Below are positions 12,084 to 29,497 of a stretch of DNA of 64,000 bases, one piece after another; positions within the stretch are counted from its first letter, which is position 1; each line of letters opens with the position of its first letter. The stretch is from a virus. A model generated the notes under the pieces. That model was not told the DNA's origin. It saw only the letters and a program-made list of their open reading frames with translations, and searched no databases. Position numbers and translations under genes: made by a program. Location: IMG/VR virus record IMGVR_UViG_3300025671_000044, positions 1 to 64,000 of that record; one strand, 5' to 3'.

Positions 12084-12374
12084 CTAAATTAAAAATAACT
12101 GTATCATTGCAATACTGTTCATAACAACAAACCAAGCACACAATACTATTGCAAATGCTGCTTTACGAATCACAGTGCTAATAACTCCAAGTATACTTCC
12201 TAACAAATACATTGGAATAAAAATCTCAGTAGCAGGATCTAAAACTGTAAATGTTAAAACAGCACTTGCTGCAATTAATATTGTTGTTTCTGCCATTTCA
12301 CAATAAAATGCAACAGGTGATAGTCTATAACTTTCTTTACAAAAGTTTACAATATATTTAATCCAATTCTCCAT
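12084..12374 (-). CDS. Small multi-pass membrane protein, unknown
   Basis: The 96-residue product has about three hydrophobic segments (near 25-45, 50-67 and 70-95). A short amphipathic N-terminus containing WIKYIVNFCKE precedes them. It overlaps the nucleotidyltransferase gene upstream by 17 bases. Similar short membrane proteins are common in T4-like marine phages; I cannot assign a function. Confidence 0.65.
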   Translation of the reverse strand: MENWIKYIVNFCKESYRLSPVAFYCEMAETTILIAASAVLTFTVLDPATEIFIPMYLLGSILGVISTVIRKAAFAIVLCAWFVVMNSIAMIQLFLI

Positions 12375-14474: not shown

Positions 14475-14919
14475 GTTGCTCAGCAAGCTCTTTGATTTCT
14501 TTTTTTGTAGATATTCTAGCAAGTGTTTCTACCTCATCCATTTTCATTTCTGGATATATTTGTGCCAACAGTTTTACGGCTTTACTGCTGTCGTCTTTCT
14601 TTTTCTTCAACCCTATCCAAGGATGGAATTGTTTCTTTCCTGTTTTGCCAGCAACACATAATAGTTGCCATTGCAGTTTAACATGATTGGTGCCGCCTAG
14701 CACATTCCAATTTTTATTGTAGTATTCATTAATCTTAAACACTGCAAGTGCAGTTTTTTCATAGTTGCCTTTAACACTGCTGATATAACGATTGAGATTC
14801 CACAAATCGCCTTTGATATCTTTCTTGCCATCTTCGCCGGCAGCATCATACAGTTCTTTGAAGCCCATGTCAATGCTTGGGATAAGTTCTTTGAATAAGT
14901 CTAATTCTTTGTTAGGCAT
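14449..14919 (-). CDS. Conserved-type phage protein of unknown function
   Basis: The 156-residue product has the segments LIPSIDMGFKELYDA, WNLNRYISSVKG and FHPWIGLKKKK, which I associate with a conserved protein of marine T4-like phages without a known role. It is basic in the middle and helical at the C-terminus (KKEIKELAEQHGFD). It overlaps kdsB by 8 bases and the zinc-finger gene by 26. Confidence 0.65.
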   Translation of the reverse strand: MPNKELDLFKELIPSIDMGFKELYDAAGEDGKKDIKGDLWNLNRYISSVKGNYEKTALAVFKINEYYNKNWNVLGGTNHVKLQWQLLCVAGKTGKKQFHPWIGLKKKKDDSSKAVKLLAQIYPEMKMDEVETLARISTKKEIKELAEQHGFDKVDI

Positions 14920-15580
14920 TTTGTTTGTGCCACTTCACTACATCTTCTGGAGAGTTGATTTCGATGCCATCAAACTCTACTTCTACTACACCAATTTTTT
15001 GTCCGTTTTGTATCCAACGCAATTGTTCTAGTTTTTCAATATCTTCTTCTGGAAACTTTGTGCTTGTTGTATAAACAATCTTTGACTCTCTGTTATATCC
15101 GTATACACCCAAATGATGATCTCCATATTCTAAACTAGCACGTAAGAACCAATGCGCTCTACCTCTGCTGTGTATCATTTTAACACTGTTTGGATCATTT
15201 CGCAAGTTAAAATCCATTGGTGTATAAGCAGTTGCTACATCGCTGTGCTGTAATGCGCCTTCTACAGCACGGATAATTTCAGGTGTAATGTCAGGCATAT
15301 CGCCTTGCACATTTATATATCTATCATATTGTAAAACTTCATCAATAACACTCATACACCTGTCGGTGCCATTTGCCAGTCTGTAGTCTGTCATTATAGC
15401 ACGATCACCAAACAATGCCATTACTTCTTCGCTGTCAGCCAATACATATGTATCCAATCCAGTCTCAACACATCTGTCATACACCCGTTGAATCAATGGC
15501 ACACCGTTGAGTGGGCAAAGCATTTTACGTGGTAATCTTGTGGCATTAAGTCTAGCGGGTATTAGTATTGCTGTGGTCAC
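14912..15580 (-). CDS. kdsB: CMP-KDO synthetase (KdsB-like)
   Basis: The 222-residue product has the family pattern IPARLNATRLPRKML (7-21) for CTP binding, then TDYRLANGTDR and VQGDMPDI (metal and sugar site). Later come SLEYGDHHLGVYGY and EKLEQLRWIQNG, all typical of 3-deoxy-manno-octulosonate cytidylyltransferase. The enzyme activates KDO with CTP to CMP-KDO, the donor for KDO transferases. It is about 25 residues shorter than E. coli KdsB. It overlaps kdsA by ATGA, so the two sequential enzymes are coupled. Putative KpsC/KpsS-like transferases lie at 23-27 kb. Confidence 0.88.
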   Translation of the reverse strand: MTTAILIPARLNATRLPRKMLCPLNGVPLIQRVYDRCVETGLDTYVLADSEEVMALFGDRAIMTDYRLANGTDRCMSVIDEVLQYDRYINVQGDMPDITPEIIRAVEGALQHSDVATAYTPMDFNLRNDPNSVKMIHSRGRAHWFLRASLEYGDHHLGVYGYNRESKIVYTTSTKFPEEDIEKLEQLRWIQNGQKIGVVEVEFDGIEINSPEDVVKWHKQNA

Positions 15581-16347
15581 CGAAAACTCCTTACAGTTAG
15601 ATTTATTTGATATAGTTGACGAACTGTTTCGGCAAAGTCTTCTAGTCGTAGCATGTTAGGTCCATCACTAGGTGCGTTATCTGGATCAGGATGAACTTCT
15701 AAGAAAAAGTTATCAACGCCCATGCCAGCAGCAGCACGAGCAAGAGCTGGAACATAATCCCTATTCCCACCACTACTGTCACCTTGGCCTCCTGGCTTCT
15801 GGACTGAGTGTGTGACGTCAAATACCACAGGAACAGGAAAATTGTCACGCATATACTGGATGCCAGTAAAATCAGTGACCAAAGTATTATATCCAAAACT
15901 AGTTCCTCTCTCTGTGATCCAAACTTCTCGAGCGCCTTCAGTTTTACTTAGTATGCCTTTGACATCCCAAGGTGCTAGGAATTGTCCTTTTTTAATGTTG
16001 ACAATACAATTGGACTTACATGCTTCTACAATTAAATCAGTTTGTCTACACAAGAAAGCAGGTATCTGTAATACATCTACTACGCCTTTACATCTACTTA
16101 TTTGTCCTACAGTGTGAACATCGGTTAATATTTTAAAACCAGCGTCTCTAATCTTTTGAAAGTCAGGCAGTGTGTCATCAATACCTACACCACGCTTACC
16201 AGACATACTGGTGCGATTTGCTTTGTCATAACTTGCTTTGAAATAATATTCAATATCAAACAAATCACATACACGTTTACACTCTGTGGCAATTTCTAAA
16301 CTTTGTTCTAGTGACTCGTGTTGACACGGTCCAGCAATAATTCTCAT
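15577..16347 (-). CDS. kdsA: KDO-8-phosphate synthase (KdsA-like)
   Basis: The product of about 256 residues carries the KdsA signatures: IAGPCQHES near the start, FKASYDKANRTS, GFKILTDVHT, LQIPAFLCRQTDL, the GQFLAPWD loop, ERGTSFGYNTL and a late HPDPDNAPSDGPN. The enzyme condenses phosphoenolpyruvate with arabinose-5-phosphate to KDO-8-phosphate. The start chosen is the ATG at 16345-16347, because GGAG precedes it at the right distance; an in-frame ATG at 16359 would lie on the transcription start itself. No KdsC phosphatase or KdsD isomerase is seen, so the host must supply them. A sigma70 promoter lies directly upstream. Confidence 0.92.
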   Translation of the reverse strand: MRIIAGPCQHESLEQSLEIATECKRVCDLFDIEYYFKASYDKANRTSMSGKRGVGIDDTLPDFQKIRDAGFKILTDVHTVGQISRCKGVVDVLQIPAFLCRQTDLIVEACKSNCIVNIKKGQFLAPWDVKGILSKTEGAREVWITERGTSFGYNTLVTDFTGIQYMRDNFPVPVVFDVTHSVQKPGGQGDSSGGNRDYVPALARAAAGMGVDNFFLEVHPDPDNAPSDGPNMLRLEDFAETVRQLYQINLTVRSFR

Positions 16348-16348
16348 G

Positions 16349-16633
16349 TTAGTCTCCATCCTTTATAATATAATAGAGATTTAATGTTTTGTCAAGTTGT
16401 TTTCTTAGTGTAGGATATTCATCTGCTAAAGCAAATAAATGTTTCCATTGATCATAACTTACTATGCCTAGAGCCTCGTTTACTGCTTCTGGATCTCCGC
16501 CTATTACCCAACGCCCGTTGTATGTGGTCTTTTTGGGCTCGTCTCTAAATCTAGCATATACAACACCATTGGCACGTTCGTATATTAAACTTTCGTGTGC
16601 TAGATCTTGTTTGGGCGGACATTCTATTATCAT
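16349..16633 (-). CDS. Small conserved-type protein of unknown function
   Basis: The 94-residue soluble product reads as a beta-rich N-terminal half (GVVYARFRDEP, GRWVIGG) and a helical C-terminal half. It resembles a small conserved protein of marine T4-like phages in feel, but I cannot name it. It overlaps the dehydrogenase gene upstream by ATGA, and its 3' end contains the kdsA promoter. Confidence 0.65.
   Translation of the reverse strand: MIIECPPKQDLAHESLIYERANGVVYARFRDEPKKTTYNGRWVIGGDPEAVNEALGIVSYDQWKHLFALADEYPTLRKQLDKTLNLYYIIKDGD
16367..16395 (-). promoter_or_regulatory. Sigma70 promoter of the kdsA-kdsB unit
   Basis: On the - strand TTGACA (16395-16390), 17 bases and TATATT (16372-16367) match the consensus at 11 of 12 positions. 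It lies inside the last codons of the 94-residue gene and about 20 bases before the kdsA ATG. The KDO genes can therefore be transcribed early and separately from the genes upstream. Confidence 0.8.
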
Positions 16634-17421
16634 TTGCGCATACCTGAAAATGTTGTGGTTTTTAATTTTTCGTTGTCATTCTTGATGCTGTCAATAAGAT
16701 CAAATTCAAGTCCGTTTTGTTTTAGAGTGTGCGCCAGTGCTGCTACATCTTTGGGCAAGCACATTCCTCCGTAGCCACGCAATCTATTGTTTACATCCAA
16801 GTATATGTTTTTGGTTTTGCCTGTTTGAACATACGCATCTTTGACTTGTGAATAATCACAATCAAACTTTTCACACAATTCGTAAAACACATTGGCAAAC
16901 ACAATACGCAATGCCGCATAAGAGTTGTTGAAGTATTTTAATATTTCAGCTTCTGTTGGTGCTAGTTGTTTAACTGCTTTGGGTAGGTGTCCGTGTGCTT
17001 CTACAATTTTTTTATACACATACGGATCATCTGTTCCAATTGCTAATAATTCGTGATTGTTGATAAAGTCATCTGCTGCTGCTCTTTCACGCAAAAACTC
17101 TGGAGCACAACAGATTGTTAGTGACGGATATTCATCAATCATGCGTTCTGTAAACCCTGGCTCAACTGTGCTGCGAATACACACAACACCACCATAGTTG
17201 ATTTGTATCAGATCTTGTAGCACACTTTCAATTACCGTAGTATCACAAGCACCGTTTGCCTCTGGAGTAGGCAAGCACAAGAACACCACTTCTGTATCTG
17301 CTAGGTCTTTTATCTCAGTATCAAACTTGATGTCGTGTTCAACAACATCATGCTCTAACAATCTAAAGCCTGTTGCGTTTGCGTTTCCTACAACGCCCAT
17401 TCCAATAATACCTAGTTTCAT
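16630..17421 (-). CDS. Short UDP-glucose/GDP-mannose dehydrogenase-like enzyme
   Basis: The 263-residue product has the NAD-binding GIIGMGVVG (4-12), APEFLRERAA (106-115), the central-helix motif KYFNNSYAALRI and the active-site loop GYGGMCLPKD with nucleophile C221. Cellular Ugd-type enzymes of about 390-450 residues oxidise a UDP-sugar to the uronic acid. Here the C-terminal UDP-binding domain is missing although all catalytic residues remain. It overlaps the epimerase gene by ATGA; the pair would suit a uronate or pentose branch. Confidence 0.85.
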   Translation of the reverse strand: MKLGIIGMGVVGNANATGFRLLEHDVVEHDIKFDTEIKDLADTEVVFLCLPTPEANGACDTTVIESVLQDLIQINYGGVVCIRSTVEPGFTERMIDEYPSLTICCAPEFLRERAAADDFINNHELLAIGTDDPYVYKKIVEAHGHLPKAVKQLAPTEAEILKYFNNSYAALRIVFANVFYELCEKFDCDYSQVKDAYVQTGKTKNIYLDVNNRLRGYGGMCLPKDVAALAHTLKQNGLEFDLIDSIKNDNEKLKTTTFSGMRK

Positions 17422-18281
17422 AATAAACTTTCCACTGTCTTTTTAAGCCCTACTTCCAAAGGCGTATAATCTGTAAATCCTGTAAGTGTTTGCACTAGTG
17501 TTGTGTCAGGACATCTACGAGTAGCACTGCCTTTTGGTCCAGGCAATATTTCTAACCTGTCTGGATTAATGCCTATATAACCCATTATCATTTTTGCAAC
17601 TACCGAAATACTGATTTCGTTGTCGTTGCCTACATTCACAGTTTGATTACTTCCTGTTTTAATTAACACGTCTGTCATACGCACAGCATCATCTACATAA
17701 CAAAAACTTCTTGTGTCATTGCCGTTGATGTAATACTCGCCTTGCTTACAGCGTTCTACAAATTCATTTACAAAGTGATCAATCTGTCCTGGTCCATACA
17801 CGTTAAAGTAGCGTATGATGAGATATTCTAAACCACTGTTTGCTACCAAATTTTCACCTAGAGCTTTCGGAATGCTATAACTCCAACGTGGGTTTGTAAT
17901 GTCATTATACATCACAGGCACTGATTCGTCTGTGGGCACATGATAGTATCCGTTGTCAATTGTGCTGTTGAATATTTCACAAGTGCTGGCAAATATGAAC
18001 TTAGTTTTTGTGCTGTGATAGCGTTTTATTAAGTTTATAGTTGGCAGTGTGTTGTTGATACAAACATCTGTTGGATGTTGATAGAATAATTTAGTGCCGT
18101 TGGTTGCTGCTAGATGAACAACTACATCAGTGTCAGGCAATTGGTTAGCCACGTCAGAACATTTTAAATCACTTTCAAAACCATCTTTTTGATCGTAACC
18201 AATTACATCATATGTATCCTTTACATAGTTGTAATAATGACTGCCTATGAATCCTTTATGTCCGGTGACTAATATTTTCAT
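17418..18281 (-). CDS. NAD-dependent nucleotide-sugar epimerase/dehydratase (SDR)
   Basis: The 287-residue product has TGHKGFIGSH (Rossmann glycine motif, 6-15), HLAA, STCEIF, the catalytic YSIPK (135-139) and RYFNVYGPGQ. RSFCYVDDAV follows, typical of extended SDR enzymes of the GalE/UXS/RmlB group. It uses NAD to epimerise, dehydrate or decarboxylate a nucleotide sugar. The ATG at 18279-18281 overlaps the TGA of the upstream gene (ATGA), which decides the start over a TTG six bases further out. Beside a UDP-sugar dehydrogenase, a UXS-like step is possible but unproven. Confidence 0.88.
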   Translation of the reverse strand: MKILVTGHKGFIGSHYYNYVKDTYDVIGYDQKDGFESDLKCSDVANQLPDTDVVVHLAATNGTKLFYQHPTDVCINNTLPTINLIKRYHSTKTKFIFASTCEIFNSTIDNGYYHVPTDESVPVMYNDITNPRWSYSIPKALGENLVANSGLEYLIIRYFNVYGPGQIDHFVNEFVERCKQGEYYINGNDTRSFCYVDDAVRMTDVLIKTGSNQTVNVGNDNEISISVVAKMIMGYIGINPDRLEILPGPKGSATRRCPDTTLVQTLTGFTDYTPLEVGLKKTVESLL

Positions 18282-18964
18282 ACCCAATTTGCCTCTTCTA
18301 ATGTTTGACTAATAGTATAATGATCTTTTGCATTTTTGAATGTATGGTGGATGTCAATATTTCCATTCATATGCTGTATCATATAATTAGCAAATTCTCT
18401 GTTTTGAGTATCACTCATATGGCAACATCTAAAGTCATTGTGTTCTGATAATTTTAGATGATTCCAATCAAGTCTACTAATGTTTATCATTCCTACATCA
18501 CTACGATTAGGAAAAGGAAATGCATATACTATATGCGCATCAGGCCGACGATATAATATACTATCTATATAAGCGTTATGATATACAATATTACTATCAT
18601 AATTTTTTATTTTGTTAATTTCGTTTTCTATAAAAGGCCAGATTTTTTTATTGTATTTTTTAAAACTTTTTAATTCTGTTCTGTCCATTTTATCTATATT
18701 TGAAAATTTTATATCTTCTATATCTGCATCTTGGTAAAAAGCTATATGCACAGATTTATTATTTTCTAAAGTAAAAATACTGCCTCTGTGAAAACTACTA
18801 ACAATAAAAATAATTTTGTCAAACTGTTTGTGTGTTTCTAAAAATTTATAATAGGAATAATCAATACTACTGCCGCCTTTATTAAAACAACGAAAATCAC
18901 TGTTTATATAATCAACCCACGAATCACCTGGCTCTGCATAACTATCTCCGTATATTCCTATCAT
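18278..18964 (-). CDS. SGNH-hydrolase-like protein
   Basis: The 228-residue product opens with IGIYGDSYAEPGDSW, resembling the catalytic GDS block I of SGNH/GDSL esterases. NKGGSSIDY (block II) follows, and a late HMSDTQNREFANYM could be block V. Such enzymes add or remove acyl groups on sugars, and phages carry many uncharacterised versions. Catalytic competence is not certain because block III is unclear. It overlaps the glycosyltransferase upstream by ATGA. Confidence 0.65.
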   Translation of the reverse strand: MIGIYGDSYAEPGDSWVDYINSDFRCFNKGGSSIDYSYYKFLETHKQFDKIIFIVSSFHRGSIFTLENNKSVHIAFYQDADIEDIKFSNIDKMDRTELKSFKKYNKKIWPFIENEINKIKNYDSNIVYHNAYIDSILYRRPDAHIVYAFPFPNRSDVGMINISRLDWNHLKLSEHNDFRCCHMSDTQNREFANYMIQHMNGNIDIHHTFKNAKDHYTISQTLEEANWV

Positions 18965-19737
18965 TCAATTAACCTTTCAAAATACCCTGACACTAAATTT
19001 TTTTTAGTTGGACCTTTTTCGTGTGTTAAAAATTCATTCATTGGACAATGATTTAAAGGAGTATGTGTGTCTACATCATACATTGTAAATGATAAATCAT
19101 TTACATTTTTAAATTTTTTTGCTGCATACATGCATACTTGTCCGTCATACCATCTTTCAATTTCTTTTGGTTTTTGTTCATATGATACCTTATATTGTTT
19201 AACAAACTCTTTGTAATCTACATGATTCTGGTTTACTACAACAAACCCAGATTCTGCACTTATACCTAAATTTAAATAATCGTGACTAAACAATCCTATT
19301 AGATGTTTTTTTGAACAAGCATAATTTAAAAAACTAGTATCAATTTTTTGTTTAAAAAATATATCAGCATCTACCCAGATAATATAATCGCCTTTTATAT
19401 TTTCTAATGCATGTAAAAAAGCAAAACCTTTTTTTGCAAATTTGACTTCTTTTTTATTTTCTGTTTTGTTGCAAAAATCTTTCCAATTTTTTAAGCATAC
19501 ATGATTCCAGTCATATACTTTTAGTTTGTCTGTTTTTGTAAACTTTGAGTTTATTTTTTCAGCATATAAATGTAACACAAAATTGTCAGGTGTATTTTTT
19601 AAAAAACTGTCAATCATAAAACAACCAAACCTATCAAAATAGTATTGGTCCATAGTAGACACAAATTCACATTTGAGTCTTGGATTATTACCTTTTAGTT
19701 CAATTGGTAAACTTCGTTTTTTAAATTTCTGAACCAA
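18961..19737 (-). CDS. GT-A glycosyltransferase-like protein
   Basis: The 258-residue product has YIIWVDADIFF (D123-A-D125), the metal-binding DxD of GT-A glycosyltransferases. An FLHALENIKGDY helix precedes it and a DGQVCMYAAKKF acceptor-side segment follows. The + strand gene at 24163 encodes a protein of the same general build. It overlaps the cupin gene's extended frame and lies in the sugar operon, so it probably transfers one of the sugars made here. Donor and acceptor are unknown. Confidence 0.8.
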   Translation of the reverse strand: MVQKFKKRSLPIELKGNNPRLKCEFVSTMDQYYFDRFGCFMIDSFLKNTPDNFVLHLYAEKINSKFTKTDKLKVYDWNHVCLKNWKDFCNKTENKKEVKFAKKGFAFLHALENIKGDYIIWVDADIFFKQKIDTSFLNYACSKKHLIGLFSHDYLNLGISAESGFVVVNQNHVDYKEFVKQYKVSYEQKPKEIERWYDGQVCMYAAKKFKNVNDLSFTMYDVDTHTPLNHCPMNEFLTHEKGPTKKNLVSGYFERLIE

Positions 19738-20068
19738 CTGTTCGTCTCACAATATCATTGTGATTAAATTCTGCCCAGTATAATTCAAAAGCTACACCGT
19801 CTTCTAGTCCTTCAAACTGATGAATAACACCCGGCTTTACCTGTGTAAAATCGCCTGGACCTAAAATAGTTTCATCAATTAAATTATAATCTTTTTGCCA
19901 TACACGAACAAGCATTTTGCCGGACTCTACAAAAAATCCATTCCATTTAAATCTATGTTCATGCTCACTACACTTGTAGCCGCCTTTGAACTCAATTCGG
20001 TGAAACTCTAACACACCGTTGGCGTGAATAAGTTCAGTTTGTCCCCAAACTTTACCTGCAATCATTTT
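19721..20068 (-). CDS. Cupin-domain protein
   Basis: The product of about 115 residues is one cupin barrel. GYKCSEHEHRFKWNGFFVESG is the first metal motif, and LGPGDFTQVKPGVIHQFEG the second, with His residues that can bind a metal. Such small cupins act as sugar epimerases or isomerases, or as partners of nucleotidyltransferases. The start is set at the ATG 20066-20068 because AAGGAG lies just before it; the frame runs on to 20092. A related cupin is fused to a nucleotidyltransferase at 27558. Confidence 0.82.
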   Translation of the reverse strand, partial: KMIAGKVWGQTELIHANGVLEFHRIEFKGGYKCSEHEHRFKWNGFFVESGKMLVRVWQKDYNLIDETILGPGDFTQVKPGVIHQFEGLEDGVAFELYWAEFNHNDIVRRTVGSEI

Positions 20069-20075
20069 ACTCTCC

Positions 20076-20582
20076 TTATAATAGTAGACCAAAGTCTATA
20101 ATTTCACTTTGCCTATTGATATCTTTTACAAAATACACACAGTCTGGATTCTTACTATCTGTAATTGGAACACATAACAAATGTCCATTACGCATCTTAG
20201 GAAAATACCATTTTACGTCATTGTAAAAGTTTGTTATTTCAATTTTAGCAAATCTTGGATGTGTTCCAGTTAAAGGATTAAATAAAAATGCTTCAAATCC
20301 TCTTTCGTTTAAACTAGTTAAAGGCAAAACTTCTAAGTCACTACCTGATTCGCTACAACCTACAGCAACACACCAATCTAATGGCATTGTGATTTCATTT
20401 CCTGCTATATTCAAAACTACAGCAGGTGCATTAAATGATTCTAAAAAAATCAAAGGATTAAAAAAGAAATCAGGATCTTCAGGATTACTATTATCCAATA
20501 CCGAAAATCTTAAATCATCTTCAATCACTTCTGGTAATGAATTTAATGAAAAACTATGGTTTTCAAGTGTTAATATTCTCAT
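20076..20582 (-). CDS. Conserved-type phage protein of unknown function
   Basis: The 168-residue product has no membrane segment and contains MPLDWCVAVGCSESGSDLEVLPL, NVKWYFPKMRNGHLL in sense if not exactly, and a late VYFVKDINRQSEIIDF. I associate this pattern with a conserved protein next to uvsW in marine T4-like phages. Its role is not known. It begins directly after the stop of uvsW. Confidence 0.65.
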   Translation of the reverse strand: MRILTLENHSFSLNSLPEVIEDDLRFSVLDNSNPEDPDFFFNPLIFLESFNAPAVVLNIAGNEITMPLDWCVAVGCSESGSDLEVLPLTSLNERGFEAFLFNPLTGTHPRFAKIEITNFYNDVKWYFPKMRNGHLLCVPITDSKNPDCVYFVKDINRQSEIIDFGLLL

Positions 20583-22046
20583 TTATTTCCAATCCACTTT
20601 CTCAATTGTGAATGGGTATTCTGCTTCCTTATAAAACTTTTTACGTTGGGTAAGGTGCCGCTTCGCAAACTTACAAGTGCTTGTAAGATCCCATATTTGC
20701 ACGAAGTCTTTGTCCTTTGCCTTTCTAACGCCTCTACCTATACTTTGAATAACTCTAACAAAACTTTTTCCGGGCTCAATAAGAACAAGGTTAAAAATGC
20801 GAGGAATATTAATACCAACAGCAGCGACACCATAAGTGGCAATAACCACGTGATTAGTTCCTTCGTTGATTTCGTCATACGCATCTTTTCTATCCTTTAG
20901 TTTTACGTCTCCTTTTACAAAGACTGATCCTGGAATAAGTTCTTGTAGCATTTCGCCTGCACTAATTCTATCTACAAGTATTAGAGTGTTGCCTGATTCT
21001 TTTACTGTGTTTAATAATTTGCCTAAGTAATTTATTCTGTCTTGATTTGTAACTAGATATTTTAATTCTTCTTGATAGCCTCTATGTGCCACTGTATCAA
21101 TAAGTTGCACAATGTTTACGTGACACTGTGATAGCACACCTTTGTCTTGTAATTCTTTTGCTGTAATCTCACCAATAACTGGACCTAAACTTGCATGTAT
21201 TGATTCAAACTCAAACTTCTCTTTAGGAATAGTTCCTGTTAGTCCCCAACGTATTGGAGCATTTTTTAAGTTGCGTGTAAGCAAGTTTTTCAACACTTCT
21301 GCTTTTGCTTGGTGAACTTCGTCTACAATAATTGTGCTCACACCATCTAAGAACTCTGCTAGTGATAATACTGCTGATCCGTCCTTGTGCTTCTTGTCCA
21401 GTATGTTTAATGACTGCCAAGTGCAGATGGTGTGAGTCTTACCTAACTCTTTTCTGTCTCCAAAATAAACGCCAACATCAAGTCCGCAATTTATATAGTC
21501 TTCTTCTGTTTGTGTTACAAGTGACTTGTTAGGCACAATAACTAAACTGCGTCCATACTTTTCACTCATATGTGATAGTGTAGCAGTTGTAATAGTTTTA
21601 CCTGCGCCAGTTGCAATCTGTTGCAAGCTCTGGGGATTGTTTGCAAAGTTGTTGATTGCTTCTACTTGATAGTCACGCAGAATGATTTCTTCACCTTCTG
21701 CAGGATGCCCTTTGGGCCAACGCACACCTTGATCAGCCCAGTAACGTTCTGTAACTTGTGGAAAATTTAATTTTATTGGATGTCGTCGGTCTTCAATGTC
21801 AACAATTTGGACATGATTTTTTTCCAATACAGAAGTAATAACATCAAGATGATTAACGTAGCCTGTGCCGCCAATACCAAAGAAAGCAACTTTACCGTCC
21901 CATCGTCCCAATTTATACTGGGGCATGTATCGAGCATAAGGCACTTCAAATTTAAGAGCATTGGAGAGCTTTCGTCTGACATCTACGTCTAGTCCTTCTA
22001 GTTTAATATTAACTTCGTCTTCTATAATTAATTTGCAACTAGCCAC
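20583..22046 (-). CDS. uvsW: UvsW-type helicase
   Basis: The 487-residue superfamily 2 helicase has a small N-terminal domain (1-95), Walker A ATGAGKT (145-151), DEVH box (242-245), LTGTIPK, and the C-terminal motifs LILVDR and IQSIGRGVRK. In T4, UvsW branch-migrates recombination intermediates, unwinds R-loops and moves replication from origin-dependent to recombination-dependent mode. Length fits T4 UvsW. It abuts its neighbours on both sides and is transcribed after the 402-residue gene from the promoter at 23260. Confidence 0.93.
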   Translation of the reverse strand: MASCKLIIEDEVNIKLEGLDVDVRRKLSNALKFEVPYARYMPQYKLGRWDGKVAFFGIGGTGYVNHLDVITSVLEKNHVQIVDIEDRRHPIKLNFPQVTERYWADQGVRWPKGHPAEGEEIILRDYQVEAINNFANNPQSLQQIATGAGKTITTATLSHMSEKYGRSLVIVPNKSLVTQTEEDYINCGLDVGVYFGDRKELGKTHTICTWQSLNILDKKHKDGSAVLSLAEFLDGVSTIIVDEVHQAKAEVLKNLLTRNLKNAPIRWGLTGTIPKEKFEFESIHASLGPVIGEITAKELQDKGVLSQCHVNIVQLIDTVAHRGYQEELKYLVTNQDRINYLGKLLNTVKESGNTLILVDRISAGEMLQELIPGSVFVKGDVKLKDRKDAYDEINEGTNHVVIATYGVAAVGINIPRIFNLVLIEPGKSFVRVIQSIGRGVRKAKDKDFVQIWDLTSTCKFAKRHLTQRKKFYKEAEYPFTIEKVDWK

Positions 22047-23254
22047 TAGCTAAATACTCCTGCATAAGTTGGAAAATAGCTAGGACTATCATCATGATAT
22101 ATATGTAAATCACAAACATCATTAACGTATATTCCTAACTGAGTCATCATTCTTGTGCTTGATAATGACAATACACATTGTGGCTTCCAGTCTACAGTAA
22201 GTAATAGTTTTGGAAGTTTAGACTTACTTATATATACAATTTTTGTTGATTTGTCAACCCAATTGTTAAGTTTTTTCTTGTGAATATATTCGTTAAAATT
22301 TTTATCTTTTTCTCTTGTGTTTTCTTTTCTATATAATACTGATTGATTTTTGTTTTCTACTATATTTCTAAATGCAGTATGTAATGTAACCAGTTGATCA
22401 TATTCTTCTTCTTTGTCTAATAAACAAAGAATAGGAAATCTTTCTAACACCAGTAAACTTTCTACAATACTGTCAATTGTGTGGTTTTTAGGATCTATAC
22501 AAATTGCTGTCTTACTACGATGCGCAATATAGTTAGCAAGTGTTGCATCTTTATCGCATGTTATATAATTTAATCCATACTGTCTTTTTCTGTCTAACAG
22601 ATGTAATCTTTCTTTTTTGTCAATAAAGTTTATACCTTTTTTTGGAATATTTTTTAGTTGATTATTCCATAGTCCTGCAATGTGTTTGCCAGGTTCTTGT
22701 TTTATTTCTAAAATTTGTTTGTAATATTCTATTAGTTTTTTATCTATTTCAAAATCTTTTTTGACAAATATTTCACACACATCAAATACTGTAGATTCAT
22801 TTAATTTAAAATAGTGTTCATGTGAACCTTTTTCATGCCAATATTGTTTACGGTTTTTGGTTGCTACAGCATCAATTTTTAAAATATCTTTTTTGCTAAA
22901 AGGAAATCTAATTTTGATCCATTCTCCTTGTGAATCTGGTTTGGGAGAACCTTCAATAATTTTTACATATTTGCTACGGTCAATTTTACGTAGTGGCATA
23001 CGTAAACTAGAAATTGCTGGTTGAAAATTGTTATATCCGTTACCAACAAACTGTGATTCATACATAGATAGTTTGGTTTGCATCAATGAAAATTGTCTGT
23101 CTGTTAATGCTTTACCTTTAAAAACTTGTCGGGCAATACTGTTTATAATAGTTTTATCATCACTGTCTATATTAAATTTGCATAGAGCATGAGTCCGCAC
23201 TAAGCCAGTAATTATTTCTAAACAATCTTCGATAGTTTCTAATTTTGTATTCAT
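22046..23254 (-). CDS. Unknown protein coupled to uvsW
   Basis: The 402-residue product is basic and helical at the N-terminus, with alpha/beta segments in the second half (NYITCDKDATLANYIAHRSK, ILCLLDKEEEYDQL, KIVYISKSKLPKLLL). These could be a degenerate nucleotide-binding fold, but I find no complete Walker motif. It shares one base with uvsW and has its own sigma70 promoter. A nucleic-acid role is a guess from position only. Confidence 0.7.
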   Translation of the reverse strand: MNTKLETIEDCLEIITGLVRTHALCKFNIDSDDKTIINSIARQVFKGKALTDRQFSLMQTKLSMYESQFVGNGYNNFQPAISSLRMPLRKIDRSKYVKIIEGSPKPDSQGEWIKIRFPFSKKDILKIDAVATKNRKQYWHEKGSHEHYFKLNESTVFDVCEIFVKKDFEIDKKLIEYYKQILEIKQEPGKHIAGLWNNQLKNIPKKGINFIDKKERLHLLDRKRQYGLNYITCDKDATLANYIAHRSKTAICIDPKNHTIDSIVESLLVLERFPILCLLDKEEEYDQLVTLHTAFRNIVENKNQSVLYRKENTREKDKNFNEYIHKKKLNNWVDKSTKIVYISKSKLPKLLLTVDWKPQCVLSLSSTRMMTQLGIYVNDVCDLHIYHDDSPSYFPTYAGVFS

Positions 23255-23259
23255 AATAT

Positions 23260-23288
23260 ACTATAACACTTTATAAACATTTAGTCAA
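23260..23288 (-). promoter_or_regulatory. Sigma70 promoter of the unknown gene-uvsW unit
   Basis: On the - strand TTGACT (23288-23283), 17 bases and TATAGT (23265-23260) match the consensus at 10 of 12. Only five bases separate the -10 from the ATG at 23254, so transcription is expected to start at or inside the start codon. Confidence 0.75.
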
Positions 23289-24128
23289 TCTTTTCAATGG
23301 CATACCAGCAGCTATTTCATCTACTGTGTATTCTGTCCAAGCATAATCATTTAACCATTGTGTTCTATCAGGCATCAAAGGATTTTCAATATCATGTAAA
23401 AAATCTATATCATTGCCTACATCATAAGCAAGAGAAGAAGGACTAACAAAAGCAGGAACGCCTTGGATGATACTATGACACCCAGGATTGCTACTGTAAC
23501 TAACAGTAGCAAATATATTACTAAACCCCATATCAAAATCATCATAAGTGCCTGCAATATGTCTTGGCTCCTGTCTTTCAACATAACGCAATCCACGTTC
23601 TATGTGTTCTAGCCTACAACGTGGATGTGGTCTAAACAAAATAGGACGGTCAGTATACTTGCGTATTTCGTCATATGTATTTAAGAACCAATTGCTCATG
23701 CGTGGCATGCCTTGCCATTGTAGACTTTTATCATGCTGTCCGCATATAAGAATATATTCGCCATTTCTACGCCAAGGCTGTAATTCAAGTCCTAACGCTT
23801 TTGCTCTCGACTCATCATTTCCTCTATCACCGAAGTAGGCATCACGGTTGATTCCATTGATTCCAACCTTCCACGTTTTGCCTCTTTTGATTCCTCCGAC
23901 TTCAAGGACGATAATCGGTCTGTTATGGGAAACACAATAGGACCAAACACTTTGGTTCCTAGCCATTCTGCCATGAAAAAGAACGCTCCAAATAACATGA
24001 ACATCGGCATGCCCAAGATTATCACTGTTGCTAATACTCCAGCCATTGCGAACAATAGAATCGCCAAAAGCCCGAAAAATATCTTTGGAATTAAGTGCAC
24101 CGTATTCTGTCCATAATCTAAATTTCAT
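23271..24128 (-). CDS. KpsC/KpsS-like capsule polysaccharide (KDO) transferase-like protein
   Basis: The 285-residue product has the GT-B-like features of the capsule polysaccharide family. GEYILICGQHDKS is a nucleotide-domain strand, PILFRPHPR the conserved His-Pro motif, and TVSYSSNPGCHSIIQGVPAFV (about 209-229, shown to its length limit by key residues S, N, G, P) the donor-site helix. KpsC and KpsS transfer KDO from CMP-KDO onto lipid-linked glycan. With kdsA and kdsB in the same genome a KDO transferase role is reasonable, but the sugar is inferred. A composite early/late promoter precedes it. Confidence 0.75.
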   Translation of the reverse strand: MKFRLWTEYGALNSKDIFRAFGDSIVRNGWSISNSDNLGHADVHVIWSVLFHGRMARNQSVWSYCVSHNRPIIVLEVGGIKRGKTWKVGINGINRDAYFGDRGNDESRAKALGLELQPWRRNGEYILICGQHDKSLQWQGMPRMSNWFLNTYDEIRKYTDRPILFRPHPRCRLEHIERGLRYVERQEPRHIAGTYDDFDMGFSNIFATVSYSSNPGCHSIIQGVPAFVSPSSLAYDVGNDIDFLHDIENPLMPDRTQWLNDYAWTEYTVDEIAAGMPLKRLTKCL

Positions 24129-24134
24129 AGTTAA

Positions 24135-24163
24135 ATAGTAGCATATTTATCAAGGATTGTCAA
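24135..24163 (-). promoter_or_regulatory. Composite sigma70/late promoter
   Basis: On the - strand TTGACA (24163-24158), 17 bases and TACTAT (24140-24135) form a sigma70-type promoter. The spacer contains the late element GATAAATA (24151-24144). The -10 is six bases from the ATG at 24128. The same design occurs before gp32. The region also holds the ribosome site AAGGA (24152-24156) of the divergent + strand gene. Confidence 0.65.
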
Positions 24164-24987
24164 TGTCAATTACAGTGGTTTCAACATTTCATCAACCAGT
24201 TTATGAATTATACGGAAAAAGATTTTTAGAAAGTTTTAGTCAAAACATTGACAAAGATATAAATCTAATCCTATACGCAGAAGATTGCGATCCTAAAATC
24301 AAAGACTCTCGTATACAAATATTAGATCAAAAACAAAGTTTGCCAAAACTAGTTGCCTTTAAAGAACGTTGGAAAAATGAACCTAAAGCAAACGGAAAAT
24401 GTCCGCCTGAAATAAAAGCACGTAGACCTAAAGACTGGCACAAAGAATTTAAATGGGATGCAATACGTTTTGCAAATAAGGTATATGCTGTTTTTGATGC
24501 TGCTGAACGTTGTAACACAAATTGGATTGTGTGGATGGATGCTGATACTTTTGTGCATAGTCCATTTCCTTACAAAGCATTTAAAAATTTGTTACCAGAC
24601 AGAGCATGGTTAGCTTATATGGGCAGAGGTAAAAAATGGCCAGAGTGCGGGTTTTATGGAATAAACTTGCGTAATGAAATTGGTCTTGAATTTTTACAAG
24701 AATTCGAACACGTATATGAACATGCTGAATATGGTATTTTCCGTATGGAAGAATGGCACGATAGTTATGTGTTTGACGAAGTTTTAAAGAAAATAAAAAG
24801 AAAACACCCAAACGGCATCATCAATAATATCAGTGGTAATCTAGTTAATGGTGAAGGTCATCCTATTATTAACAGTGAACTAGGTGCATATCTTGATCAT
24901 CTTAAGGGCGATAGAAAACAAATTGGTAAAAGCAACAAGCCTAGAGATTTAATAGTAAACCGTCAAGAAAGTTATTGGACAAACTGA
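24163..24987 (+). CDS. GT-A glycosyltransferase-like protein
   Basis: The 274-residue product has ITVVSTFHQPVYELYGKRFL at the start, NLILYAED, and WIVWMDADTFVHS with the DxD metal site (D126-A-D128). A WHDSYVFDEV segment follows for acceptor or catalytic contacts. The ATG at 24163 is chosen because AAGGA lies six bases before it; a TTG at 24157 has no such site. It is the only + strand gene among the glycan genes, convergent with the KpsS-like gene at 24972, which it overlaps by 16 bases. It resembles the 258-residue transferase at 18961. Confidence 0.8.
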   Translation: MSITVVSTFHQPVYELYGKRFLESFSQNIDKDINLILYAEDCDPKIKDSRIQILDQKQSLPKLVAFKERWKNEPKANGKCPPEIKARRPKDWHKEFKWDAIRFANKVYAVFDAAERCNTNWIVWMDADTFVHSPFPYKAFKNLLPDRAWLAYMGRGKKWPECGFYGINLRNEIGLEFLQEFEHVYEHAEYGIFRMEEWHDSYVFDEVLKKIKRKHPNGIINNISGNLVNGEGHPIINSELGAYLDHLKGDRKQIGKSNKPRDLIVNRQESYWTN

Positions 24988-25898
24988 CGCATATGACGCC
25001 AACAACTACCGTCTTCTAATTCCCGTAAACTCCAATGAAACATACTAATCCGTTCTAGCCAACGTTCTCTATCAAATTCTTTAGGTGACTCTAAGTTTTC
25101 AAATCCGTGATGTGCAACTTCTGCGCATTGACTTTTACTTGGATCAGTGATAAACGCTGGATACCCTTTTATAATTGGTCCTACAATACTGCTGCTATTA
25201 TGATTAACTACGGCATAGCATTGCACTAGATCAGCTTCTAATGGAGTGCCTTGTCTGCTGATACTTACATTTGGCATTTTTGCAATTGGAGAGTTATGAG
25301 GGTGTAAATAAACTCCAGCTTTCTTATCACCTGGATGTGCTCTTACAATAATATGTCTTGGACTGTGTTTCCTTATTTCTTTTACAACATTTTGAATCCA
25401 AGACACAACATCATATCCTCCCATGCTCCATCCTTTATTACGCTGACAACACAATACAATATGTCTACCTCTTTTAGGATCTTCTAATCTAATTCCTAAA
25501 TCATTTTGTATTTGTTGCCAACGTTTTGGATCAGGGTTAGTATCGCAATAATTTCCTGTGTTTGGAAATACGCCATCAAAGCTATATCTCAAATAACAAT
25601 GTGGTTGATTTGTTTTTGTATGATATAAAAACAAATTGCTGTCTGCTGTAATGACATGTTTGTTTTGTGTTCTGTCAATTACACTTTGACGTAATTTTAA
25701 ATGTGGTGCATTTTTTCCTACTTCGTGCTGCCAGCCTTGTATAACTCCAACATCACAATCGATTAAATTATTACTTTTGTGTAAGATGCCTATATCACCA
25801 GCTGAATTTACGCCATTTACAAACTTTTCTAAAAGTAAATATTTTTCTTTGTTGTTGTTTATTGTAGGAACAACATTGTAATAACTAACGACTTTCAT
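24972..25898 (-). CDS. KpsC/KpsS-like capsule polysaccharide transferase-like protein
   Basis: The 308-residue product has RHIVLCCQRNKGWSMGG, RHIIVRAHPGDKKAG (the conserved HP motif), and VVNHNSSSIVGPIIKGYPAF near residue 232, the Ser-rich donor-site helix of the family. It resembles the 285-residue protein at 23271 in layout. The likely role is transfer of KDO or a related sugar, with CMP-KDO from KdsB as candidate donor. It overlaps the larger fusion gene upstream by 14 bases. Confidence 0.75.
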   Translation of the reverse strand: MKVVSYYNVVPTINNNKEKYLLLEKFVNGVNSAGDIGILHKSNNLIDCDVGVIQGWQHEVGKNAPHLKLRQSVIDRTQNKHVITADSNLFLYHTKTNQPHCYLRYSFDGVFPNTGNYCDTNPDPKRWQQIQNDLGIRLEDPKRGRHIVLCCQRNKGWSMGGYDVVSWIQNVVKEIRKHSPRHIIVRAHPGDKKAGVYLHPHNSPIAKMPNVSISRQGTPLEADLVQCYAVVNHNSSSIVGPIIKGYPAFITDPSKSQCAEVAHHGFENLESPKEFDRERWLERISMFHWSLRELEDGSCWRHMRQFVQ

Positions 25899-27558
25899 TT
25901 AAAATACGCCATGCTGTTCCGTTACGCATTTCTTGTGCCGTGAATTGGCAATATGCTAAGTGAGCTGCGTAAGCATATATTTGATCAGGATCGTGTATAT
26001 TCAGCTTGTTGAGTTCACTGATTTTTGTGTTACACAATACTGTTGCAGCATTAGGTGCTAAAGCAATAGCTGGTCTGTTTGCAAGTATTGCTTCTGTAGC
26101 AGCTATACTATTGTATGTAATTAAACAGTATGCTTTATCAAGTGCTTTCCAAATTGTGTCTGTTGTAACTCTTACACTACGATCAGGTTTTTTTCTAATA
26201 ACTATTTGTCTATCAGTGTGGGCTCTAATCTGGGCAGTAGTTATTCTAATCCAGTCTTCTAAACTTTCTCCGTAAAACTTCATTACTTTTTCGCTCGGAG
26301 GACATACTAAAATGTATTCGCCTTCTCTGTATTTTGGAACTTTATAACGCCATTTTGATATTCTGTCGTGTGGACGAGAAATGATTTCGCCTTGCTGTTG
26401 TAAAGCATTTTTAGTTATACGATGATATTCTTTTTTTGTTGTAGGTTGATAATATCCTGTATCGATAGCATAATAATCTCTATTGTTTTCAATACAATAT
26501 TTCAGTGCTTTTTGGCCACCCCCGCCTAGTCCTCTAATAATTAATGTATTATCAGTTCCTTTTTCTCTAGTAAATTCACTGATATAACCGCCGGCACCGA
26601 TTATAAAATCGCTAATATAAGGATCATATTCTAATCCTTTCTTTTCGTAATTAAATTCGCCCTGTGTTGGTGCTATGCCTGCAACTTTGATTCCCATTTT
26701 ATTTTCCTCAAATGTTTTAATTTCTTCCTTAGATTTAAAATAGTTTTCACTAGGATCAATCCAACTGTTTACTTTTGCTTTAAAGTAATTTATGATATGA
26801 GGAGGATAACTTAAATCATTAACAGTAATTACTTTGTTTATATTAGCTTCTAATTTTTTTTTTGATTCCTCTAGTTCGTATTCTAGATAGTTTGCTTTTC
26901 CTTTATACCATTCTTTTGCGTATTCACAGTCTTGATATTCTTCAAACCACGGACCGCCTTCGGTGTAGTGCAATGCTTTTGGAGTGCCGTCTTCTGGTTC
27001 CTTATACCAACCAACAAGCCAATTCCATTCGTGACTAATTTCTCCAATTTCTTCGTCCTTTAACCAACTAAATCTATGTAAAAACGCACCAGTTTTACGT
27101 TCGTCATTTACAAAATCTTTTGTCACAACAGCATTTGCTGGATGTTCACAATTAATTAGCATCATGCTTGACCAATTTTTTCTTGGATATTGTGTTTGTT
27201 GCTTTCCGTCCATTTTAACACCTTCCTTAGGTGTATAATCGTGCTGGGCACACATTATAGCATACTTGTCGTCTCTTTGGTCGTATAACTTTTTTATATC
27301 ATCTAAAAACACAAAATCACAATCTATAAAAAGTGCCCAACCTTTAAAATTACACAGTTCTGGTATTAAAAATCTTGTAAAGGTAAATTCTGTAGATGCA
27401 AGTGCGTCTACAGGTCTAGTGTATATGCCGGCTTTCCTCAAATCTTTTTGTTTTAATGGTTGTATGTCTACCGGAATGCTAGACTTTTCAATAATAGTTT
27501 GCTTTGCAACTTGATAAGCAATATCTTCTCTGCTGTCCCAGCCTACAAATACTTTCAT
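25885..27558 (-). CDS. Two-domain glycosyltransferase: GT8-like plus KpsS-like
   Basis: The 557-residue product is a fusion. Residues 1-230 form a GT-A domain with KVFVGWDSRED at the start and ALFIDCDFVFL (D79-C-D81) as metal site, near the GT8 group. A coiled linker (about 225-285) follows. Residues 290-557 form a KpsC/KpsS-like domain with EYILVCPPSEK, IVIRKKPDRS and LITYNSIAATEAILANRP. Two transferase activities in one chain would add two sugars in order. It is bounded by a one-base overlap with the nucleotidyltransferase-cupin gene upstream and 14 bases downstream. Confidence 0.8.
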   Translation of the reverse strand: MKVFVGWDSREDIAYQVAKQTIIEKSSIPVDIQPLKQKDLRKAGIYTRPVDALASTEFTFTRFLIPELCNFKGWALFIDCDFVFLDDIKKLYDQRDDKYAIMCAQHDYTPKEGVKMDGKQQTQYPRKNWSSMMLINCEHPANAVVTKDFVNDERKTGAFLHRFSWLKDEEIGEISHEWNWLVGWYKEPEDGTPKALHYTEGGPWFEEYQDCEYAKEWYKGKANYLEYELEESKKKLEANINKVITVNDLSYPPHIINYFKAKVNSWIDPSENYFKSKEEIKTFEENKMGIKVAGIAPTQGEFNYEKKGLEYDPYISDFIIGAGGYISEFTREKGTDNTLIIRGLGGGGQKALKYCIENNRDYYAIDTGYYQPTTKKEYHRITKNALQQQGEIISRPHDRISKWRYKVPKYREGEYILVCPPSEKVMKFYGESLEDWIRITTAQIRAHTDRQIVIRKKPDRSVRVTTDTIWKALDKAYCLITYNSIAATEAILANRPAIALAPNAATVLCNTKISELNKLNIHDPDQIYAYAAHLAYCQFTAQEMRNGTAWRILNESR

Positions 27559-28322
27559 TAATCTCTTCTTTCTATATCATCTTCAGTCAGCTCTTTGCCT
27601 AGCCAAACTTCAATTACTTTAGCATCTTTGTTATCTATGTTTACTGCTTTATGCCACCAACCTACAGGTATATCAATACTGTCTCCTGGGACTAGCAAGG
27701 TGCTAGTTTTGTTACCTCGTTTGTCTTGTAAAAACATATTAATAACACCGTCTACAACGTGCCAGTGTTCACTGCGTTTAAAGTGTCGTTGATCGCTAAG
27801 AGATTTGCCCTGGTAAAATGTAAGTTCTTTGACTTGCCATTCGCCGTTGCGATCTAATACCTTGTATTCACCCCAAGCACGTTTAGTTATAGGCTTGTCC
27901 CAGTTTTTTAGAATCCAACTACTGCTGTTCTTTTTATCTTCTCCACCTACACCAAAAACAAACTCAACATCAGGATGATTACCGTATACTTTTTGTTCCG
28001 GTATGTCTCCGTTGATTCTATCTCCACCGTTAGCAACAATTATTTTTCCAGTAGTTGTTTGTAGTAAATATCCAATAGCTTTGCTAGTTCCTCCTGTATC
28101 ATCGTCAGAAACTAGCATTACGTTGTCAACCATTTCTAAATTTTCAATAATTTTAGCACGTTCTTCAAAGGGCATAAATGCTTGCCCTTTTTTACGAACC
28201 AACCATGGATCGCTATTCACTCCAACTACGAGAGTGTCTCCTAATTGTTTTGCTGCTTTAAAATATTCAATATGTCCGCTATGAAGTGGATCAAATCCGC
28301 CAGATACAAATACTGTTGTCAT
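27558..28322 (-). CDS. Nucleotidyltransferase-cupin fusion
   Basis: The 254-residue product begins with a cytidylyltransferase-fold domain (1-135): FVSGGFDPLHSGH with the HxGH motif, GVNSDPWLVRKKG and MPFEERAKII, close to heptose-1-phosphate adenylyltransferase (HldE C-domain/GmhD) and glycerol-3-phosphate cytidylyltransferase. Residues about 150-240 are a cupin with the spacing of the mannose-6-phosphate isomerase domain of AlgA/ManC: KRSEHWHVVDG and LVPGDSIDIPVGWWHKA. The chain may isomerise and activate a sugar phosphate. This combination is not one I know as standard. It sits directly upstream of the two-domain transferase. Confidence 0.82.
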   Translation of the reverse strand: MTTVFVSGGFDPLHSGHIEYFKAAKQLGDTLVVGVNSDPWLVRKKGQAFMPFEERAKIIENLEMVDNVMLVSDDDTGGTSKAIGYLLQTTTGKIIVANGGDRINGDIPEQKVYGNHPDVEFVFGVGGEDKKNSSSWILKNWDKPITKRAWGEYKVLDRNGEWQVKELTFYQGKSLSDQRHFKRSEHWHVVDGVINMFLQDKRGNKTSTLLVPGDSIDIPVGWWHKAVNIDNKDAKVIEVWLGKELTEDDIERRD

Positions 28323-28334
28323 AAAGATATTTAA

Positions 28335-28958
28335 TCAACGCCACCCAAAGATATAGTCTTTTCTGACATTGGTAATTTCGTATGCACCATATGATTTTAA
28401 AAACATACCTGCACATTCATTTGTGTCGGCTTGTTGTTCACAAACTATAATTGGTTTGTATTTAAGTATTGTGTTCATTGCACCTTTTAAAACTTCAAGT
28501 TCATGTCGTTCACAATCTATTTTAAGTAATCCAAATTTTGGCAGATTTAAATCGTCTAATCTTTTTATTTGTATACTACCAGTGCCAACTTCACTTACAA
28601 AACTACCACCTGTGTTTTCTGCATCGTATACCATTTCAACTGTGCTGTTTACACTGCCTAATGCAAATCTATTGATATCGACTGGCAATCCGTTTACATT
28701 ACGCTCAAGACAAGTATATACTTGTTCGAGTGGTTCAAATGCAATTACACGATCAAATTTTCTAGTTAAAGGTTTTGCCCATAAGCCTACATTTGCGCCA
28801 ACATCAATTGCTAAACTAAAATCATCAACGTATCTATACGCTACATCTCTTACATCGTCTTGATATTCAGGCGGCCCACCTTTTTTGATACGCTTTGCAA
28901 TCAAGCGTTCGAAATGATTATCTGAATTAGGCATCCAATAGTTATAAACTAATTTCAT
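28335..28958 (-). CDS. FkbM-family methyltransferase
   Basis: The 207-residue product has SLAIDVGANVGLWAKPL (SAM-binding motif I), VIAFEPLEQVYTCLERNV (motif II, acidic ribose contact), and LLKIDCERHELEVLKGA with KIDCEGxE-type motif IV/V, here with R for G. FkbM enzymes O-methylate sugars and related hydroxyls. It lies between the nucleotidyltransferase-cupin gene and another methyltransferase, and overlaps the latter by ATGA, which supports glycan methylation. Confidence 0.85.
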   Translation of the reverse strand: MKLVYNYWMPNSDNHFERLIAKRIKKGGPPEYQDDVRDVAYRYVDDFSLAIDVGANVGLWAKPLTRKFDRVIAFEPLEQVYTCLERNVNGLPVDINRFALGSVNSTVEMVYDAENTGGSFVSEVGTGSIQIKRLDDLNLPKFGLLKIDCERHELEVLKGAMNTILKYKPIIVCEQQADTNECAGMFLKSYGAYEITNVRKDYIFGWR

Positions 28959-29497
28959 TTTTTTAACACTGTAATATACTTTTGAACATAGATTCCAAAT
29001 TTTTCTACAAGTTTTTTCTTTGTAGTTTTTTCATACTGTGTATTCCATTTATACTCAGAAAGTTTATGTTTCCACCATGTAGGTTCTTCAATAATTAAGT
29101 GTGCATTTCTACCATCACTTAATTTCTTCTTAGCTGGATGACAAGCAATTAGATGATATTGATATTTTTGTGCTCTTGCAAAAAGATCTTTTAATGTAGC
29201 TTCTAATAAGTCGGGTTCTATATGCTCTAAAACATCGCTACTATATATTAAATCAACTTGATCTGGCAACTGTATAGGACTTGTTACTGGATCATATGTG
29301 TATAATTTAATATGTGGATATTTTTCTTTTATTGTTAATGATGTTAGACCTTTACCACTACCAAAGTCTAACATACTTTGTATTTCGCCTGAGTCAAGTA
29401 ATTCTACAACAGGTTTTGGTATTTCTTTACCACTTCCAAATGCAGACTTACTATGTAACTTTTCAAGTTCTTTTAAATATTCTTTACTATGTGCCAT
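28955..29497 (-). CDS. Class I SAM-dependent methyltransferase
   Basis: The 180-residue product has MLDFGSGKGLTSLTI (motif I), LYTYDP (motif II) and VDLIYSSDVLEHIEP (motif IV with the conserved LEHI). These are the marks of class I methyltransferases of the UbiE/Methyltransf_11 or Methyltransf_23 kind. The substrate is unknown; position between FkbM and uvsY makes a sugar or small molecule more likely than DNA, since no DPPY/NPPY motif is present. Confidence 0.82.
   Translation of the reverse strand: MAHSKEYLKELEKLHSKSAFGSGKEIPKPVVELLDSGEIQSMLDFGSGKGLTSLTIKEKYPHIKLYTYDPVTSPIQLPDQVDLIYSSDVLEHIEPDLLEATLKDLFARAQKYQYHLIACHPAKKKLSDGRNAHLIIEEPTWWKHKLSEYKWNTQYEKTTKKKLVEKFGIYVQKYITVLKK

Follow-up and report, generated by a model that had tools for sequence, protein, structure and literature searches.

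A phage KdsA-KdsB pair beside proteins with a predicted Kdo-transferase fold that lack the nucleophile aspartate

The published retaining beta-transferases of 3-deoxy-D-manno-oct-2-ulosonic acid (Kdo), which include KpsC (glycosyltransferase family GT107), WbbB (GT99), and KrkA (GT140), carry a QxxxD motif, whose Asp forms a covalent intermediate, and a (K/R)XHP motif, which binds cytidine monophosphate (CMP); KrkA is an exception in having Ser as the first residue of the second motif (PMC12887879, PMC9587256, PMC10148158). Here, we describe a glycan-building gene cassette in a phage, positions 1 to 64,000 of IMG/VR record IMGVR_UViG_3300025671_000044 (97,759 bases). This whole 64,000-nucleotide stretch is called the window. 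The cassette encodes a KdsA-KdsB pair, two proteins that we label KpsA and KpsB, and a fusion protein whose C-terminal domain resembles them (Table 1). KpsA and KpsB share with KpsC, WbbB, and KrkA the overall fold, the (K/R)XHP motif, and the Gln of QxxxD, at identities of about 11 to 16% in structural alignments, but the nucleophile Asp is Ser in KpsA and Gly in KpsB, and the fusion domain is without both motifs.

Other described systems resemble parts of this cassette. A phage-borne KdsA-KdsB pair is already known, since adjacent kdsA and kdsB genes are annotated in one cultured phage, Synechococcus phage S-SCSM2R, as they lie in the window phage. However, the S-SCSM2R genes are convergent, their products are 41% (KdsA) and 31% (KdsB) identical to those of the window, KdsB retains Asp235, and there is no KpsA or KpsB match. 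In Pelagibacter phage Mosig and Caulobacter phage CcrColossus, a KpsS-like gene adjoins a GT8-like one, corresponding to the two halves of the fusion, but these are separate genes, mostly annotated as hypothetical, and no RxHP occurs in those of their proteins that were read. The podovirus ct7QV12 (MW202713) encodes a KpsA-like protein, 34% identical over 211 columns, with RPHP as in KpsA; it differs in keeping QxxxD (QVPQD) and has no kdsA match. The pseudaminyltransferase KpsS1 (GT118) has been described as a relative of KpsC and WbbB (PMC12887879), its donor being pseudaminic acid. Finally, the bacterial polysialyltransferase 5wcn (GT38 row) uses a CMP-sugar and has an HP motif and a C-terminal domain like that of KpsB (Z 10.3, root mean square deviation [rmsd] 3.0, 121 aligned), but good alignment is limited to the C-terminal half and the donor differs. 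The open-access literature, which leaves most subscription journals outside, yielded no account of phage Kdo genes or of this transferase family in phages, and Kdo is unmentioned in the moraphage paper (PMC12619734). What appears to be new here is that a phage family is linked to the Kdo-transferase fold, that its nucleophile has been lost while the CMP site is kept, and that KdsB has a fixed Asn.

Fold and catalytic motifs of KpsA, KpsB, and the fusion domain

A preliminary description of the window had recognized three KpsC/KpsS-like domains. A profile scan found no meaningful Pfam family for KpsA, KpsB, or the fusion C-terminal domain, and a Pfam scan of 36 KpsA members found no relevant one. 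Searching PDB sequences with a KpsA profile gave a single match (E 0.81), and a PF05159 search of eight cellular genomes gave one weak match. The relation to Kdo transferases is seen by structure comparison alone. When the AlphaFold models of KpsA (pLDDT 82.9) and KpsB (pLDDT 94.0, pTM 0.89) were compared with the PDB by Foldseek, the best 21 and the best 25 matches, respectively, were all KrkA, WbbB, or KpsC. In VIA, KpsA aligned with E. coli KpsC-N (Z 12.4, rmsd 4.2, 239 aligned) and KpsB with T. dismutans KpsC (Z 14.1, rmsd 3.9, 239 aligned). The best non-Kdo row for KpsB had a Z of 10.6 and an rmsd of 9.0; for KpsA the margin was small, with calG3 (Z 10.3, rmsd 7.5) tying with KrkA (Z 10.2 to 10.5, rmsd 4.3 to 4.4). 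These comparisons of predicted models confirm the retaining beta-Kdo transferase fold for KpsA and KpsB. The three phage domains are mutually homologous by hhalign (KpsA-KpsB, 99.9%; fusion-KpsB, 99.5%; fusion-KpsA, 98.4%), and the fusion domain is tied to the fold only by these alignments to KpsA and KpsB. Of the three domains first described, the fold thus stands for two and homology for all three, with no meaningful Pfam match.

Ser135 in KpsA and Gly156 in KpsB stand in place of the "absolutely conserved" nucleophile Asp; both proteins keep the Gln of QxxxD, and the fusion domain has P-P-S-E-K for QxxxD and R-K-K-P for RxHP. All three window proteins are therefore without the catalytic Asp that the characterized bacterial relatives need. 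Their designation as KpsC/KpsS-type transferases is not supported in the mechanistic sense, given that the nucleophile is absent from all three and the His of the HP motif from one. Across loci that were fetched by similarity to window proteins, some of them on the same contig, 93 of 95 KpsA sequences have Ser at position 135 and all 88 KpsB sequences have Gly at position 156, and the motif His is kept in 94 of the 95 (H168) and in all 88 (H188). The few KpsA exceptions include matches that belong to other paralogues.

Spacing, fold, and the podovirus homologue are the grounds for equating these motifs with those of the published enzymes. From Gln to His, KpsA has a spacing of 37 and KpsB one of 36; from published numbering, it is 37 in WbbB (Q228-H265; PMC9587256) and 38 in KrkA. 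The alignment of KpsA with its podovirus homologue is gapless at the site, and because that protein reads QVPQD there, with the Asp present, S135 occupies the nucleophile position. Where an N-domain strand ends, an acidic residue is also conserved (E76 in KpsA, D86 in KpsB, and D366 in the fusion) and is a candidate counterpart of KrkA Glu102 and WbbB Glu158. Among the loci fetched from related phages, we found 20 distinct open reading frames (ORFs) with QxxxD and RxHP. Such a paralogue occurs in 14 of the 71 loci that span uvsY to uvsW, where it often separates uvsY from the nucleotidyltransferase-cupin gene; no fourth KpsA/B-type copy was found in the window's record.

The KdsA-KdsB pair

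KdsA passes the curated equivalog model TIGR01362 (333.3 bits against a cutoff of 314). Ten of the 11 active-site positions tested are invariant in 75 of 75 phage sequences, namely, the Cys of the metal-dependent class, two Lys, an Asn-Arg, a later Lys, and a His, Glu, His, and Asp; R151 is kept in 74. Phage KdsA sequences form one group in a tree, separate from 15 cellular KdsA proteins (support, 100/99). Because the sample was picked by similarity and long branches are present, this tree does not establish a single capture of kdsA. Near each other in LR756500, a 462-kb uncultured phage (L230), are matches to both kdsA and kdsB, at about 130 to 132 kb of the record.

Both genes are real and overlap by 4 nucleotides, with the sequence GTGA rather than the ATGA first described, and kdsB starts with GTG at 15580. 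From the sequence, the most likely start of kdsA is the ATG at 16347, downstream of a GGAG, because many relatives align only from residue 5 and the GGAG lies in front. A sigma70 promoter had also been proposed. The box itself (TTGACA-17-TATATT) is present at 16395 to 16367, but we rejected it as evidence of a promoter because such boxes hardly exceed chance in the window (81 observed, 69.3 +/- 8.6 expected).

KdsB matches PF02348 well (82.7 bits) and keeps the equivalents of R10, R15, K19, D100, R164, H185, and E210-Q211. The equivalent of D235 (E. coli numbering) is Asn209, so that a Mg-binding ligand is lost. All 64 distinct phage KdsB sequences have Asn at this site, and their other tested active-site residues are invariant. 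In Aquifex KdsB, the pair D95/D219, corresponding to D100/D235, has been called strictly conserved and binds Mg-A (PMC3149649). The tested active-site residues are thus kept in KdsA and, but for this metal ligand, in KdsB. Asp is present at the D235 site in 11 of 12 aligned cellular rows (two rows being one gene). The exception is a KdsB-like gene of a Synergistaceae genome (L223), which has Asn; a second KdsB-like gene of that genome (L228) has Asp. Because Asn serves as a catalytic metal ligand in some other sugar nucleotidyltransferases, such as GlmU, the phage enzyme may still be active.

A cassette conserved around uvsY and uvsW

The window carries T4-like genes for UvsX, UvsY, UvsW, the large terminase, and the tail sheath, as well as a gp32-like gene assigned from position and sequence. 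Its UvsX is nearest to that of 340- to 490-kb phages (e.g., Phosso, Atu_ph07, and Vibrio phage 2.275.O), and contigs related to the window phage reach 330 kb, so a jumbo genome is likely for this uncultured, T4-like lineage. We infer a marine origin of the lineage from its Pelagibacter and Synechococcus phage matches rather than from sample data.

The cassette is conserved around uvsY-uvsW. All 71 loci that span uvsY to uvsW have KpsA, KpsB, the GT8/fusion gene, and the DxD glycosyltransferase located between kpsA and kpsB in the window. In loci that span uvsW to h13779, kdsA is found in 65 of 71 and kdsB in 60, whereas the dehydrogenase (5 loci) and epimerase (6 loci) are rare in this set. 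Every gene tested is under purifying selection, with dN/dS against relatives of about 0.02 to 0.21. Among 14 records, namely, that of the window and 13 large related ones, all possibly fragments, KdsA was found in 13, KdsB in 12, and KpsA/B-type genes in 12; two records (G015 and G016) have KdsA with no Kps match. KdsC (TIGR01670) and KdsD (PF01380) were found in none of the 14, in agreement with their absence from the preliminary description.

Profile matches bear out the short UDP-sugar dehydrogenase, the short-chain dehydrogenase/reductase (SDR) epimerase, the cupin, the nucleotidyltransferase-cupin fusion, and the FkbM and class I methyltransferases named in that description. Translations show its three DxD glycosyltransferase domains (DAD, DAD, and DCD), and only the DCD domain passes the Pfam cutoff (Glyco_transf_8).

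Table 1. Features of the cassette and their basis
Positions	Strand	Feature	Basis	Remarks
14912..15580	-	KdsB-like CMP-Kdo synthetase, 222 amino acids (aa), short	PF02348 and residue alignment	
15577..16347	-	KdsA, Kdo-8-phosphate synthase, Cys of metal-dependent class	Profile and residues	Longest ORF starts at 16359
16349..16633	-	Conserved 94-aa protein upstream of kdsA		In 64/71 spanning loci
16630..17421	-	Short nucleotide-sugar dehydrogenase, N-terminal and central domains only, no C-terminal domain match	Profiles	Variable, 5/71 loci
17418..18287	-	SDR nucleotide-sugar epimerase/dehydratase	Profiles	Variable, 6/71 loci
18278..18964	-	Protein with N-terminal GDSY motif	No profile match	SGNH-like label unconfirmed
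18961..19737	-	GT-A-like glycosyltransferase, DAD motif	Translation, weak PF00535	
19721..20092	-	Cupin	Profiles	68/71 loci
23271..24128	-	KpsA, predicted retaining-Kdo-transferase fold; Q131-H-D-K-S135 at QxxxD site, R166-P-H168-P, E76	Model and alignment	
24157..24987	+	GT-A-like glycosyltransferase, DAD motif	Translation	Neighbors on opposite strand
24972..25898	-	KpsB, predicted retaining-Kdo-transferase fold; Q152-R-N-K-G156 at QxxxD site, R186-A-H188-P, D86	Model and alignment	
25885..27558	-	557-aa fusion of a GT8-like N-terminal domain (DCD) with a KpsA/B-like C-terminal domain; PPS at QxxxD site, RxKP at RxHP site, D366	Profile and hhalign	
27558..28322	-	HldE-C/TagD-like nucleotidyltransferase fused to mannose-6-phosphate isomerase-type cupin	Profiles	
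28335..28958	-	FkbM-family methyltransferase	Profiles	
28955..29497	-	Class I methyltransferase	Profiles	

The plus-strand glycosyltransferase gene and kpsA lie on opposite strands in the window and in 97 of 147 loci and share a strand in the rest, a pattern of recurrent inversion or gene replacement. Between uvsW and kpsA, positions 22046 to 23254 encode a 402-aa protein that is found in 69 of 71 loci, evolves fast, and has no meaningful family match. Elsewhere in the window, a Nol-like carbamoyltransferase (6608 to 8062; phrog_1601, E 6.4e-99) is possibly another sugar- or base-modifying enzyme. At 12358 to 13183, one gene of an adjacent pair matches the C-terminal part and the other the N-terminal part of a single kinase family (phrog_10255), a normally fused kinase/nucleotidyltransferase that is split here. 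A 3471-aa ORF occupies 53571 to 63986, and another, of 2620 aa, lies at 381 to 8243 of L190.

A possible route to a Kdo-containing glycan and its alternatives

We give about even chances to a scheme in which CMP-Kdo made by the phage supplies soluble transferases of the CMP-Kdo type, which assemble a glycan containing Kdo, probably on proteins of the phage; its donor, mechanism, acceptor, and role are what we infer. KdsA would condense host arabinose-5-phosphate with phosphoenolpyruvate to Kdo-8-phosphate, a host phosphatase (KdsC or similar) would release Kdo, and KdsB would convert it to CMP-Kdo. KpsA and KpsB, as soluble proteins of the GT-B type, would bind CMP-Kdo via RxHP and the conserved Gln and transfer the ulosonate onto an acceptor made by the GT-A enzymes, and neighboring enzymes would methylate and otherwise trim the glycan. 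Because the nucleophile Asp is Ser or Gly, KpsA and KpsB are unlikely to use the double displacement of KpsC, WbbB, and KrkA; our leading guess is a direct, sialyltransferase-like inverting attack with E76 or D86 as the base. The KpsC-like domain of the fusion probably uses another donor or is noncatalytic, because its CMP-binding signature is absent. The acceptor is most likely cytoplasmic, with a phage structural protein as first choice, because the cassette enzymes are without membrane segments and no Wzx was found; this favors it weakly over the host envelope. More tentatively, and with the balance against it, the Kdo-transferase fold may have a phage branch, KpsA and KpsB, in which the nucleophile has been lost and Kdo is transferred from phage CMP-Kdo with inversion, with nucleophile-keeping paralogues in sister phages, in a natural series linking sialyltransferase-like and double-displacement chemistry.

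Several points weigh against this scheme. The inverting chemistry is deduced solely from an absent residue, and another nucleophile may be in use. The donor does not follow from the fold: a related family, GT118, uses a different CMP-sugar and transfers pseudaminic acid (PMC12887879). The enzymes nearest in fold use CMP-Kdo. KdsB has lost its metal ligand, and all NCBIfam kdsB models match it below their cutoffs (TIGR00466, 107.3 bits against 155.2). KpsA, KpsB, and the fusion are present in a 230-kb relative record (G013) in which KdsA and KdsB were not found, and the Mosig and CcrColossus isolates have RxKP-type relatives with no kdsA match. Furthermore, the records are fragments, and because the loci were fetched with window proteins and some of them share contigs, their counts are not independent frequencies. 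From the route between Kdo activation and transfer that was originally proposed, the KdsA-KdsB pair and its three Kdo-transferase-family neighbors remain, and the KdsB metal ligand and the nucleophile are missing. Of the two outcomes that would have spoken against that proposal, missing KdsA/KdsB active sites and a grouping of the KpsS-like proteins with families that do not use CMP-Kdo, neither was fully observed.

A role in remodeling the host envelope, in which CMP-Kdo and the transferases change lipopolysaccharide (LPS) or capsule, for example, to block superinfection or supply Kdo during takeover, is possible, and we regard it with some doubt. Kdo is a Gram-negative surface sugar, KpsC works in capsule biosynthesis (PMC10148158), and the cassette is mosaic, with variable sugar enzymes. 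However, no Wzx flippase (PF01943) was found in the 14 records, other exporters and initiating transferases not having been searched, no membrane segment is predicted in the cassette enzymes, and the core is near-constant in the lineage whereas host surface sugars vary.

It is unlikely that the donor is another ulosonate, either pseudaminic acid-like or a Kdo variant, with D235N as the trace of a shift in KdsB specificity. The fixed Asn, the short KdsB with its scores under the kdsB cutoffs, the Synergistaceae genome with Asn in one of two KdsB-like genes, and the use of pseudaminic acid by GT118 (PMC12887879) would fit this; against it, KdsA is a clear Kdo-8-phosphate synthase whose gene adjoins kdsB, and the remaining tested KdsB residues are kept. 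Also improbable, in our judgment, is a reading in which KpsA, KpsB, and the fusion domain have no catalytic activity and act as scaffolds or lectin-like subunits, with QxxxD paralogues or the host performing the transfer. The nucleophile is absent from all three, and related phages do encode the 20 QxxxD-plus-RxHP ORFs, but RxHP and the Gln are invariant or nearly so in the 88 KpsB and 95 KpsA sequences, and just 14 of the 71 loci that span uvsY to uvsW hold a QxxxD paralogue, the window's record having none. Glycosylation of modified DNA bases, as by T4 glucosyltransferases, would explain the place among uvsX, uvsY, and uvsW and could accommodate the Nol-like carbamoyltransferase, but it is very unlikely because only 1 of the 14 possibly fragmentary records, not the window's own, yielded a thymidylate synthase-like enzyme (the base hydroxymethylase family), and the nearest folds act on glycans. 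That single match, in G016 (L217), has one internal TAA stop.

The covalent intermediate of retaining beta-Kdo transferases has been described as unique so far among glycosyltransferases (PMC12887879), and the origin of these enzymes has been called unclear (PMC10148158). Here, a large phage family has the nucleophile present and absent side by side in the same loci, and because these loci hold both forms, the loss or gain of covalent chemistry is directly testable. Kdo is known mainly from LPS and capsules, and its incorporation into a virion, or its production by a phage to some other end, would likewise give this sugar a new use.

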